Positions 1,413-63,719 of a stretch of DNA of 64,000 nt are shown here, in pieces. This DNA comes from Clostridium fermenticellae (GTDB lineage: Bacteria; Bacillota; Clostridia; Clostridiales; Clostridiaceae). The notes beneath the pieces are model-generated. The model saw only the letters and a program-made list of their open reading frames with translations. It was not told the origin of the DNA and searched no databases. The stretch is from positions 62,001 through 126,000 of the forward strand of contig NZ_CP032416.1 of the NCBI RefSeq assembly GCF_003600355.1. The letters are read 5' to 3'. Numbering within the stretch: the first letter of the stretch is position 1; every line of letters begins with the position of its first letter. The position numbers and the translations under genes were made by a program.

Positions 1413-1454
1413 TATAGGGGTTATAATTTTAAGCTTAAAATTATAACCCCTATA
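1413..1454. terminator. Perfect 42-bp palindrome between convergent genes
   Basis: Both halves of 1413-1454 are exact reverse complements with no loop other than the turn itself. It separates the M42 gene from the convergent glycosylase gene and probably ends transcription from both sides. Neither flank has a long T tract, so it is not a textbook intrinsic terminator. Confidence 0.6.
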
Positions 1455-44186: not shown

Positions 44187-46124
44187 ATGAAAAAGAGAAC
44201 CTATTATGTTACAACACCAATTTATTATCCATCTGCAAATCTTCATATAGGAAATACTTATACTACTGTTGCAGCAGATGTCCTAGCAAGATTTAAGAGA
44301 TTAACAGGATATGATGTAATGTTTTTAACTGGAACAGATGAACATGGTCAAAAAATTCAGAGATTAGCGGAAGCAAAAGGAGTTACACCAAAGGAATATG
44401 TTGACGTTATTGTCTCCGGGATTAAGGACCTTTGGAAAATAATGAATATAAGTTATGATAAATTTATAAGAACTACAGATGATTATCATATAAAGGGAGT
44501 TCAAGATATATTTAAGAAATTATACGATCAGGGAGATATATATAAAGGATACTATGAGGGATGGTATTGTACACCATGTGAATCTTTTTGGACAGAAACA
44601 CAGCTTGTAGATGGCAATTGCCCTGATTGTGGCAGACCGGTTGAGAAGACAAAGGAAGAAGCATACTTTTTCAAGATGTCTAAATATGCCCCAAGATTAA
44701 TAGAATATATAGAAAATCATCCGGATTTTATACAGCCGGAATCAAGAAAAAATGAAATGTTAAATAACTTTTTAAAGCCAGGACTTCAGGATTTATGTAT
44801 ATCAAGAACATCATTTGACTGGGGAATTCCTGTCACATTTGATGAAAAACATGTTATATATGTTTGGATAGATGCACTTTCAAATTATATTACTGCTCTG
44901 GGATATGGGAGTAACAATACAGAAGCGCTTGATAAATACTGGCCAGCTGATATACATCTAGTAGGAAAAGATATACTTAGATTTCATACAATTTATTGGC
45001 CTATTATGCTTATGGCCCTTGGAATGCCACTTCCAAAGCAAGTTTTTGGGCATGGATGGCTTCTTGTAAATGGTGGGAAGATGTCAAAATCAAAGGGAAA
45101 TGTGGTGGATCCAGTTGTTCTTGTGAATGAATTCGGGACAGATCCTGTGAGATATTATCTTTTAAGGGAGATACCATTTGGATCAGATGGATTATTTAAC
45201 AATGAAATATTTATAAATAAAATAAATTCTGATCTCGCAAATGATCTTGGAAATTTATTATCAAGAACTTGTGCCATGGCCGAAAAGTATTTTGACGGAA
45301 TTATACCTGCACCAACTGCAAAGGAAAATGTTGACGATAATCTTATAGAGTGTGCATTGTCTACACCTAAAAAGTTAGAGGATAGTATGGATAAACTCAG
45401 GATACCTGAAGCACTTGATACTATTTGGGAGCTTGTAGGTAAGGCAAATAAATATATAGATGAAACAACTCCCTGGATTCTTGCGAAAGATGAGGATAAG
45501 AAAGACAGGCTTGGCACTGTTATTTATAATTTAGTTGAATCCTTAAGATTTATATCGGTATGTTTAGTACCTTTTTTGCCGGAAACAAGCGAAAAAATAA
45601 ATAAACAGTTAAATGTAGATATTGCAACCTGGGATAGTCTTGCCTCATTTGACGGAACTCAAGCAGGAAATAAGGTACAAAAGGGAGATATTCTATTTCC
45701 TAGAATAGATGTGGAAAAGAAGATAGAGGAACTTAATAGAATTAAGGAACAGAATAAGGCAGCTGCAAAGAAGACCGAAATGCAGCCAATAAAGGATCAG
45801 ATAACAATAGATGATTTTGAAAAGATAGATTTAAGGGTTGCCAAAGTTTTGGAGTGTGAGTCAATTAAAGGTGCAAAAAAACTGTTAAAGTTCAAGGTTG
45901 ATTTGGGAGGAGAACAAAGACAGATCGTATCTGGAATATCTAAATATTATAAACCAGAAGAATTAGTTGGTAAATCTGTAATAGTTGTAGCGAATTTAAA
46001 GCCAGTTAAACTAATGGGAGAAATTTCTCAAGGAATGATACTTTCTGGAGCTACAGATGATAACAGCAAGCTATTTACTGCTACATTAGATGGAGAGCTG
46101 CCAGCCGGAAGCATTGTAAGATAA
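44187..46124 (+). CDS. metG: Methionyl-tRNA synthetase
   Basis: 645 residues. PIYYPSANLHIGN is the HIGH motif and KMSKSKGNVVDP the KMSKS motif (about 300). A four-Cys zinc knuckle lies in the connective peptide (CTPCESFW...CPDCGRP, about 127-147). The C-terminal 105 residues are a tRNA-binding EMAP/Trbp111 OB domain (FEKIDLRVAKVLECESI). It charges tRNA-Met. Expression is under the T-box; GGAAAGGAAG precedes the ATG. The stop codon touches a long palindromic repeat. Confidence 0.97.
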   Translation: MKKRTYYVTTPIYYPSANLHIGNTYTTVAADVLARFKRLTGYDVMFLTGTDEHGQKIQRLAEAKGVTPKEYVDVIVSGIKDLWKIMNISYDKFIRTTDDYHIKGVQDIFKKLYDQGDIYKGYYEGWYCTPCESFWTETQLVDGNCPDCGRPVEKTKEEAYFFKMSKYAPRLIEYIENHPDFIQPESRKNEMLNNFLKPGLQDLCISRTSFDWGIPVTFDEKHVIYVWIDALSNYITALGYGSNNTEALDKYWPADIHLVGKDILRFHTIYWPIMLMALGMPLPKQVFGHGWLLVNGGKMSKSKGNVVDPVVLVNEFGTDPVRYYLLREIPFGSDGLFNNEIFINKINSDLANDLGNLLSRTCAMAEKYFDGIIPAPTAKENVDDNLIECALSTPKKLEDSMDKLRIPEALDTIWELVGKANKYIDETTPWILAKDEDKKDRLGTVIYNLVESLRFISVCLVPFLPETSEKINKQLNVDIATWDSLASFDGTQAGNKVQKGDILFPRIDVEKKIEELNRIKEQNKAAAKKTEMQPIKDQITIDDFEKIDLRVAKVLECESIKGAKKLLKFKVDLGGEQRQIVSGISKYYKPEELVGKSVIVVANLKPVKLMGEISQGMILSGATDDNSKLFTATLDGELPAGSIVR

Positions 46125-46125
46125 A

Positions 46126-46383
46126 TATAGGGTTTATGAATGTAAGCTTAACTTATGCTCCGACCGGGATTTCCAAAATACGTCATGTGAAAAATTTCTA
46201 GTAAGTTTAGACTTGCGCTTAAAAAAATCTAAGCAGATTTTATAAACTCGCTGTGTTCAGACATATAAAATCCATTAAGATTTTTAAGAACGCTTCACTA
46301 AGACTTACTACAAAATTTTTTAATGTGCCTTAATTTTAGAAATCCCGCTAAGGGCTAAGTTAAACTTCTACTTGTAAATTTTA
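46126..46383. repeat. Long palindromic repeat P1
   Basis: About 258 bp whose two arms (each about 120 bp) are imperfect reverse complements. The tip (from about 46243) carries AAACTCGCTGTGTTCAGACA. The left end is TATAGGGTTTATGAA. It is closely similar to P3 (58737-58999) along its whole length. It begins one base after the metG stop codon. No open frame of note. Confidence 0.85.
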
Positions 46384-46384
46384 A

Positions 46385-46646
46385 TAGAGTTTGTAATTTT
46401 AAAGTTAATTTATACCAGAGGGGGATACTAACAAAATATAGGTACATTAAATTCTTTTATTGTAATTCTTGGCCCGGTATTTTAGAAAATATATAAATAT
46501 TGATACTGTTTGAGCACAGCGAGTTTATCAATATTTATTAGATTTTCAAAATACCGGGCTTTAGAATTACTAAAAGCATTTATAGTACCGGATTTTGTCA
46601 GCATCTCCCGGGGGATGGATTAACTTTTCATTTACAAACCCTGTAT
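46385..46646. repeat. Long palindromic repeat P2 (inverted relative to P1)
   Basis: About 262 bp, again two complementary arms of about 120 bp. The tip on the minus strand reads AAACTCGCTGTGCTCAAACA, matching P1, and the end AAACCCTGTA is the complement of the P1-type terminus. The stem sequence differs from P1 although complementarity is kept. It directly abuts P1, tip orientation reversed. Confidence 0.8.
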
Positions 46647-46762: not shown

Positions 46763-47350
46763 ATGAAAAGTTTACAAGGAACTAAAACAGCAGATAATCT
46801 TGCAAAGGCTTTTGCGGGAGAGTCTCAGGCTAGAAATAGATATACATACTATGGAAGAAAGGCAGATAAGGAGGGATATAAAAAAATTGCAGCAGTATTT
46901 TTAGAAGTGGCTGACAACGAGAGGGCTCATGCAAAGGTATTTTTTGATTTACTTGTGAGGGGACTAGGCAAAGCACATATAAAAGTTGACGCAGAGTATC
47001 CTATTGGATATGGGGATACAGAGCAGAATCTTCAGTATGCAGCGGAAGGTGAAAAAGAGGAATGGGGAACTCTTTATCCAAATTTTGCAGATCAAGCGAA
47101 AGAGGAAGGTTTTTCCGAGGTTGAAAGTGCATTTAGGGAGATAATAAAAATAGAAACATCTCATGAACAAATTTATATAAATTTACTTAATAATTTAAAG
47201 AGTGGTACTTTATATAAAAGAAACACAACTAAGAAGTGGAGATGTCGAAATTGTGGATATATTTTTGAAGGTACCGAGGCGCCTAAGGTATGTCCAGCAT
47301 GTAAGCATCCTCAAGGTTATTTTGAAATTATGGATAATATTGAACTATAA
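46763..47350 (+). CDS. rbr: Rubrerythrin
   Basis: 195 residues. The ferritin-like di-iron domain has GESQARNRYTYYGRKA, EVADNERAHAKVF and EIIKIETSHEQIY (ExxH ligands). A C-terminal rubredoxin-like domain (WRCRNCGYIFEG...CPACKHPQGYF) holds a FeS4 site. It reduces hydrogen peroxide to water in anaerobes, taking electrons from rubredoxin. GGAGGAAG precedes the ATG. Palindromic repeats lie on both sides. Confidence 0.95.
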   Translation: MKSLQGTKTADNLAKAFAGESQARNRYTYYGRKADKEGYKKIAAVFLEVADNERAHAKVFFDLLVRGLGKAHIKVDAEYPIGYGDTEQNLQYAAEGEKEEWGTLYPNFADQAKEEGFSEVESAFREIIKIETSHEQIYINLLNNLKSGTLYKRNTTKKWRCRNCGYIFEGTEAPKVCPACKHPQGYFEIMDNIEL

Positions 47351-47360
47351 TGGTCAAAGT

Positions 47361-47496
47361 GTTTTTATAAATGAAAGTTTAACTTATACGTAAGCGAACA
47401 ATACTTCACTAAGGCTTACTAAAAAATTTTCTAATGTGCTTACATTTTGGAAATGTCAGCTTACGTATAACTTAATCCTGGAATTACAAACCTCAT
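47361..47496. repeat. Partial palindromic repeat P4
   Basis: About 136 bp. The outer arms pair (ACTTATACGTAAGC with GCTTACGTATAACT). The right inner arm (from CTTCACTAAGGCTTACTA to TTACATTTTGGAAAT) resembles that of P1 and P3, but most of the left arm and the conserved tip are missing. It looks like an internally deleted member of the family. Confidence 0.7.
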
Positions 47497-47635
47497 AAAT
47501 AATAAGTACTAGGGGTTTTAGAACGATTTGTTGTGAGAGATTCTGAAATTACGGACAAGCATTATGAGAAACTTATAAATTTTGAGTAAATCTGATATAA
47601 TCTTAAATTAAAAAGATATATTCATGAGAAATAAC
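47497..47635. other. Spacer upstream of tatD
   Basis: With P4 and the tatD promoter and leader this makes a 402-bp gene-free stretch after rubrerythrin. Nothing else was recognised in it. Confidence 0.4.
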
Positions 47636-58736: not shown

Positions 58737-58999
58737 TATATAGGGTTTGTAACTGAAAGCTTAACTTATGCTCCGGCCGGGACTTTCAAAATATGTCACG
58801 TAAAAAATTTCTAGTAAGTCTAAGCTTGCATTCATAAAAATCTAAGCAGATTATATAAACTCGCTTTACTTAAACATATATAATCTACTAAGATTTTTAA
58901 GAACGCTTCGCTAAGACTTACTACAAAATTTTTTAATGTGCCTTAATTTTAGAAATCCCGGTCTACGCATAAGTTAAACTTAGAATTATAAATCCTATA
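58737..58999. repeat. Long palindromic repeat P3
   Basis: 263 bp. The left end TATATAGGGTTTGTAACTG matches the complement of the right end AATTATAAATCCTATA, and the arms (each about 120 bp) are imperfect complements. The tip carries AAACTCGCTTTACTTAAACA. It is very similar to P1 over the whole length. It lies in the 750-bp gap between the MBL gene and ileS. Confidence 0.85.
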
Positions 59000-62717: not shown

Positions 62718-63719
62718 TTGCCAGCATCAATAAAAGACGTTGCTAAAGAAGCAGGAGTTTCTATTGCTACAGTATCAAGAGTTTTGAATGATGTAGACGT
62801 TGTAAATGAAGAAACTAAAAAGAAAGTATTAGAGGCTATAGATAAATTAGGATACAGACCTAATATAGTTGCAAGAAGTTTAAAAACACAAAAAACTAAA
62901 ACAGTTGGAATAATAATACCAGATATATCAAGTCCTTTCTATCCCGAGATAGTAAGGGGAGCTGAAGATGTATCAAATATATATGATTATAACATGATGC
63001 TTTGTAATACAGATTTGGATTTCGAGAAAGAAATGGAATATTTAAGAGTTCTTAAGGAAAAAATGGTTGATGGAGTTCTTTATATGAGCAGTTCTCTTAA
63101 AAGCAATATATTAGAACTTATAAATAAACTTCAGATTCCTATGGTTATGGTTGAAACTACAAGTGAAGAGGGAAATATTCCAAGCGTAACTATAAATAAT
63201 AAGCAGGCAGCAGAGGATGCCGTAGAGTATCTCATAAAAAAAGGAAGCAATAATATAGCTTACATAGGAACGGATAAGGATGAGATAAATGCCAGGGCAT
63301 TAAGATATAAGGGATATCGATCCGCACTTAAAAATAATAATTTAACATTTAATGAAGATATAACTTGCTTTGGTGGTTTAAAAGCTAAAGATGGATACGA
63401 AGGTATGAAGAATATACTGGAGAAAACACAAAACATAGATGGAGTTTTTTGTACTGGCGATGAAATTGCTATGGGAGCAATAAACTTTTTAAGAGAAAAA
63501 AATATAAAGGTTCCAGAGGATATAAATGTTATAGGTTTTGATAATATTTACTCGGCTGCAACATTTTATCCTAAACTTACAACTGTTGCTCAACCTATGT
63601 ATGATATGGGATCAGTTGGTATGAGAATGCTCATAAAGATTATAAATAAACAAGATCTTGAAAATCAAAATTATGTTCTGAAGCATGAAATAATAGAAAG
63701 AGATTCTTGTCGAAAATAA
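62718..63719 (+). CDS. LacI-family regulator (CcpA-like)
   Basis: 333 residues from TTG 62718, with TAGGAG 9 bp ahead; TTG 62709 is an alternative. HTH of about 3-25 (SIKDVAKEAGVSIATVSRVLN), hinge YRPNIVARSL, and a periplasmic-binding-protein-type effector domain of about 60-333. The region VGIIIPDISSPFYPEIVRGAEDVSN closely follows CcpA. It may govern carbon catabolite control together with HPr-Ser-P; a specific-sugar repressor is possible, but no sugar operon is adjacent. Confidence 0.83.
   Translation: MPASIKDVAKEAGVSIATVSRVLNDVDVVNEETKKKVLEAIDKLGYRPNIVARSLKTQKTKTVGIIIPDISSPFYPEIVRGAEDVSNIYDYNMMLCNTDLDFEKEMEYLRVLKEKMVDGVLYMSSSLKSNILELINKLQIPMVMVETTSEEGNIPSVTINNKQAAEDAVEYLIKKGSNNIAYIGTDKDEINARALRYKGYRSALKNNNLTFNEDITCFGGLKAKDGYEGMKNILEKTQNIDGVFCTGDEIAMGAINFLREKNIKVPEDINVIGFDNIYSAATFYPKLTTVAQPMYDMGSVGMRMLIKIINKQDLENQNYVLKHEIIERDSCRK

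Follow-up and report, generated by a model that had tools for sequence, protein, structure and literature searches.

Several described systems of short palindromic repeats come close to the family reported here. Bacterial MITEs (Correia, Nezha, RUP and Bcr1) are likewise gene-free and short, with AT-rich inverted-repeat ends, many intergenic copies and the capacity to form hairpins; in the present family, however, a single palindrome takes up the full length, the size stays fixed at ~260 bp while the stem changes, the tip is common to other phyla and no parent transposon was found. The REP/BIME sequences with RAYT (Y1) are also high-copy palindromes, are recognized as a folded single strand and lack the gene in most copies, but they measure 20–40 bp rather than 260 bp and carry a GTAG/CGTC tag that is missing here, as is a Y1 transposase in this genome. 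The replication-linked orientation and the hairpin-based recognition of IS200/IS605-derived palindrome-associated elements have counterparts in the present family (the second a proposed one), which differs in its inverted-repeat ends, in a stronger fold on the opposite strand and in having no Y1 gene. Repeated stem-loops are known from Clostridium itself: in the survey of Cozzuto et al. (2008; PMC2267715), C. tetani has only the 74 bp Clot-1 family (19 copies) and CRISPR-containing families, with no 260 bp family, and Clot-1 is set apart from our elements by its description (74 bp versus 260 bp).

The BoxC/PIT intrastrand triplex motif measures ~36–40 nt (Holder et al., 2015; PMC4666352). Several of the palindromes found outside Clostridium start with a pyrimidine–purine hairpin and a second purine run, which is a resemblance only; the Y9-loop-R9-N3-R9 triplex motif is absent from the elements of this genome, and E. 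coli BoxC was set aside as a candidate for the same element, the intergenic space examined being too short. Long palindromes bounded by a pyrimidine–purine hairpin and a purine run (CAAAGAAA-like) were seen in L353 (2990–3420), L354 (2000–2450) and L408, a Pasteurella palindrome copy has the pyrimidine–purine layout inverted at both ends and matches lie at six places on an Ilyobacter megaplasmid. The core boxes of integron attC sites were not seen by eye in the elements, and strings of the tip sequence gave no relevant context in the literature searched. The family is apparently undescribed in that literature and in Rfam; the kind to which it belongs, a non-autonomous mobile palindrome, is already known, and the tip shared across phyla has a fair chance of signalling something less ordinary.

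In the 64 kb window (the whole stretch of DNA analysed), the family is represented by the following features; here and below, the names metG, rubrerythrin, ileS and hydrolase-like were assigned by reading translations.

1413..1454 (genome 63413), no strand: 42 bp hairpin of the shortest size class, with the family ends; the sister species G001 lacks it
46126..46382, + strand (the strand of tip AAACTCGCTGTGTTCAGACA): palindrome P1, P1/P4 class
46244..46263, + strand: P1 tip, the conserved apex; model R1 match at 46230–46277, minus, E 1.1e-7
46383..46645, − strand: palindrome P2 (P2 class), abutting P1 back to back
46507..46526, − strand: P2 tip; model R1 match at 46492–46540, plus, E 2.4e-9
~47362..47497 (limits approximate), no strand: shortened family relic downstream of rubrerythrin, from alignment
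58739..58999, + strand: palindrome P3, P1/P4 class, flanked by a divergent hydrolase-like gene and the ileS T-box leader
58857..58876, + strand: P3 tip; model R1 match at 58843–58890, minus, E 8.7e-8

The first-pass annotation had described P1–P3 as three palindromes that each form one long hairpin, and all three are present, with folding far beyond that of shuffled controls (z = −5.3 for P1, −15.1 for P2 and −12.5 for P3; 0 of 200 shuffles were as good). As it had also stated, P1 and P2 adjoin in opposite orientation right after metG (44187–46124); rubrerythrin follows at 46763–47350. P3 had been called nearly identical to P1, a description that does not hold at an identity of 86.7%. P2 is 74% identical to P1 and 77% to P3, and its stem does, as claimed, differ from theirs yet pair with itself. 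The tip said to be common to all three was recovered, whereas the common ends are approximate only, the right end of P1 being degenerate (TTGTAAATTTTAATA). No full-length member other than P1, P2 and P3 occurs in the window; the relic at ~47362–47497 and the hairpin at 1413–1454 had been missed.

P1–P3 belong to a large family of mobile DNA that carries no genes and has more than 100 copies in the genome. In the single-contig genome of 2.82 Mb, blastn with P3 returned at least 40 P1-type copies (85–100% identity), and P2 has about a dozen long relatives together with many partial ones. The elements end in TATAGGGTTT; the end motif TATAGGGTTTRTAA occurs 139 + 120 times at no more than one mismatch, compared with 7 + 4 times for the reversed control. 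Curation of 488 kb of genome stretches around elements gave 104 palindromes with this motif at one end and its inverse at the other, a minimum for the genome; the proposed search for copies outside the window had a favourable outcome. Among the curated palindromes, 57 of 104 measure 259–263 bp, and smaller ones fall into discrete size classes (41–47, 58–60, 72–81, 107, 122–124, 139–149 and 159 bp). The genome holds about 109 tips, and the family is intergenic: of 107 tip centres, two fall within predicted ORFs. P1-type copies are mutually only ~85–92% alike, so recent movement is unsupported. The small forms correspond to full elements minus the centre, often between two copies of the self-complementary AAGCTT and in both possible directions, which looks like repeated independent deletion of the centre. 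The P1 + P2 pair is itself a repeated composite, with a second copy at genome positions 374296–374808 (91% identity, similar TAATA junction). Back-to-back dimers of two element classes with a TAATA-type junction recur at 408483, 725945, 1038459, 1054815 and 2568528, and the dimer may move as a unit. P5-class elements are clustered at 2.40–2.56 Mb, in some cases as an oppositely oriented pair within one intergenic region, and have an additional conserved left end, GCATATATTGCGTATTAAGCATTGATCATA.

The proposed check for empty sites in relatives was favourable in the sister species G001. At the orthologous site of P3 there is no element in G001, where the flanks match (81% and 86%) and are separated by 47 bp compared with 364 bp here; five other elements (at 63413, 215084, 2448903, 2501175 and 2634532) are also absent from G001, all as sites without base resolution, since its intergenic sequence is too diverged, and with none from within the species itself. 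Both species have an element at the site downstream of rubrerythrin, a full-length one in G001 and the shortened relic here, and the P5 class is common to orthologous sites in both, with copies 82–88% alike between them. The first-pass proposal of a non-autonomous mobile element is supported on several counts: over 100 copies are spread through the genome, their ends are fixed, they sit between genes, and they are missing from orthologous sites in the sister species. P1–P3 are probably copies of such an element, ~260 bp in size, palindromic over its whole length and moved in trans.

The stems are maintained as paired structures. When 58 full-length copies were aligned, two-sided Watson–Crick changes were seen at 34 of the 82 consensus pairs, each type being present in at least two copies; the count is 5–9 when the partners are slid. 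Subfamilies differ by such paired, compensating changes (for example, GCTTAACTTATGC..GCATAAGTTAAGC versus GCTTAAGTTATAC..GTATAACTTAAGC), and the covariation for which a test had been suggested is confirmed both within the genome and across phyla. The bottom strand, carrying TGTTTGAGC, folds better in 93–97% of P1/P4 copies, and the strand with TGTTTGAGC folds better in 81% of the elements of other species. Alternatively, quasi-palindrome correction in the course of replication could maintain the pairing with no need for recognition.

The tip (other strand TGTTTGAGCnnAGCGAGTTT) forms the apex of long, unrelated palindromes in phage contigs and in six phyla (Bacillota, Bacteroidota, Elusimicrobiota, Pseudomonadota, Calditrichota and Patescibacteria). 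An exact scan for TAAACTCGCTnnGCTCAAACAT with one genome per species gave 92 stretches with the tip, the invariance of which across phyla is partly built into this search pattern; the isolates that bear it include Thiomicrorhabdus, Flammeovirga, Carboxylicivirga, Tepidibacter, Geosporobacter and Clostridium. It was present in 29 of 227 genomes of the order, with the reversed control nearly zero, and in 14 of 399 genomes of a phylum sample. In 90 distinct inner stems, which lay outside the search query and were unselected for pairing, the first seven pairs are 80% Watson–Crick in one register only, with all four pair types at each. A set of 25 sequences gave a covariation score of 0.927 (0.178 when shuffled), but this set was pre-selected for good pairing and the 80% in the 90 stems is the less biased figure. 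The covariance model built from these 25, none of which comes from this genome, matches only P1, P2 and P3 in the window (E ≤ 1.1e-7), with nothing further there at E ≤ 1.

The superfamily is defined here by the apex TGTTTGAGC-nnA-GCGAGTTT and a self-complementary stem in a fixed register, and both are found in the tip-bearing palindromes. As read from the sequence, the order on the tip strand is stem, AT bulge, G.T, T.T, T.T, T.G, G.A, A.G, G-C, C-G and the loop nnA. In DNA, both GNA triloops and tandem G.A pairs have very high stability. In a tip variant of this genome, CTCACTTTGTTCA, the mini-stem is kept by a paired change. Variants with a longer mini-stem between GA..GA occur in L101 and L409, which suggests that growth of the apex loop is possible with the G.A pairs retained. 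In cold-adapted Clostridium (L089, L104, L124 and L191), a tip-bearing palindrome lies near a fructose-bisphosphate aldolase-like gene, apparently in the same place, and some copies may have been kept across species. The inoviruses L173 and L175 contain the tip letters without a palindrome centred on them and were rejected as members. The combination of a shared tip and differing stems points to a common machine that recognizes the folded strand.

Two cases on viral contigs add to this picture. In L176 (4022–4279), within a clostridial phage tail operon, the element lies between exact 25–26 bp copies of the stem-loop AAAGGTACCTTGAATAGGTGCCTTTT, and its relatives L402 and L403 have a single stem-loop and no element; a whole-hairpin target duplication in L176 is possible. 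In L170/L408 the element lies upstream of a terminase-like gene, and the relatives L410–L414 are without it. As single cases, L176 and L170/L408 show carriage on viral contigs and insertion. Plasmid and phage collections searched with the window element gave no match.

The orientation of the elements was compared with replication, on the assumption that the origin lies close to coordinate 0 and that the change point falls within 1.26–1.52 Mb. The top strand of the tip runs along replication in 67 of 74 P1/P4 copies. Predicted genes follow the same replication halves at 70%, and of the 33 P1/P4 copies flanked by convergent or divergent genes, 30 still run with replication (binomial p = 1.4e-6). 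The P5 class, which is the older one, has no such bias (8 of 17; Fisher p = 1.8e-4 versus P1/P4). Survival offers one account, limited to the bias and consistent with a mobile element: copies with the stronger hairpin on the lagging-strand template would be deleted. The better-folding bottom strand does avoid the lagging-strand template in those 67 copies, and centre-deleted forms are many. We nevertheless consider survival as the only cause rather unlikely. The P5 elements have the same folding preference as P1/P4, with a strand difference that is equal or larger, yet no bias, so survival alone is insufficient; age and rearrangement might explain the contrast between the classes.

For the mobile element moved in trans, we propose a mechanism in which the folded single strand with TGTTTGAGC-nnA-GCGAGTTT would be the form recognized by the mobilizing enzyme. 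The recognized tip would be a GC-nnA-GC mini-hairpin closed by tandem G.A pairs, with a two-base AT bulge below. The enzyme would read the tip and the hairpin shape rather than the stem sequence, for which reason the stems may drift or be exchanged. Insertion would be linked to passage of the replication fork, which would explain why P1-type copies point with replication. Copies would then decay into the 41–159 bp forms through loss of the palindrome centre at short repeats, AAGCTT being one example. The first-pass annotation was right that no transposase is nearby, and the whole genome (G000) has no match to either Y1_Tnp (PF01797) or DDE_3. No gene family recurs beside the tips in other phyla, and none there looks mobile. 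Pairs of P5 elements ~1 kb apart were considered as the ends of an autonomous element and rejected, as no transposase-like ORF was seen between them. The mobilizing enzyme may be of another family, be phage-borne or have been lost from this genome.

The ends and junctions bear on a more conventional reading, a classical MITE of the IS630/Tc1-mariner type, in which a DDE transposase would cut the terminal repeats, TA would be duplicated and the long palindrome would be incidental. The ends read TATAGGG...CCCTATA, the intergenic sites are AT-rich and two back-to-back pairs that abut cleanly share a TATATA junction, which is compatible with TA duplication and is expected if a TAGGG..CCCTA core is flanked by duplicated TA. 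There is no duplication beyond the TATA ends of elements, and long imperfect direct repeats flanking the elements of this genome show no excess over the control. We regard this reading as unlikely, as G000, G001 and all but one (G149) of four further related genomes lack DDE_3, and as neither the cross-phylum tip with unrelated stems and ends nor the replication-linked orientation of a nearly symmetric element would be explained.

In its most specific version, the favoured explanation would be movement of the IS200/IS605 or REP type, in which a Y1 HUH transposase excises the folded strand and inserts it at the lagging-strand template. The replication-linked orientation (in P1/P4 copies, not in P5), the conserved hairpin with mismatches and the lack of target duplication outside TATA would all fit. 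This specific form is nonetheless quite doubtful: PF01797 is absent both from G000, with its many copies, and from G071, with four exact tips, and the elements are 260 bp long with no 20–40 bp unit tagged GTAG/CGTC. Judging from the orientation, moreover, the better-folding strand would lie on the leading-strand template; IS608 uses the template strand opposite to that of the better-folding strand of P1/P4 elements.

The first-pass annotation had also raised a structured RNA. Its observation of conserved pairing with changing stems stands, and a transcript-level element (an attenuator, an mRNA stabilizer or a processing site) spread by recombination would agree with the strong compensating changes, with G.U-type pairs that favour one strand and with the intergenic sites. 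An RNA role is improbable, however, because in most cases the better-folding strand is the template for the genes beside it, and so antisense to them, and because orientation follows replication rather than transcription, even between divergent genes; in addition, Rfam gave no match above the gathering score and P3 sits between divergent genes, before a T-box leader. A host signal for chromosome organization or repair, kept by selection for its replication polarity, would fit the orientation and the conservation of P5 copies at some orthologous sites, but is very improbable given the patchy distribution (29/227 and 14/399 genomes), the copies on phage contigs, the tolerance of recurrent centre deletions and the absence of polarity in P5.

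Beyond the mobile element of this genome, a wider reading is conceivable, and we offer it tentatively. The palindromes may represent a bacteria-wide class of gene-free elements without a conserved stem, with the tip on the folded strand as their sole shared identity; they would be moved at the replication fork and carried between cells by phages, by an enzyme family not yet linked to them, and at least one phage insertion would have duplicated a whole stem-loop. The family would account for many unannotated intergenic repeats. With more than 100 copies of known strand, size and decay state in one genome, it also provides a natural test of the survival of long palindromes in replication. If one enzyme reads the same tip in six phyla, these palindromes would be the tracks of a mobilizing system that annotation has missed.
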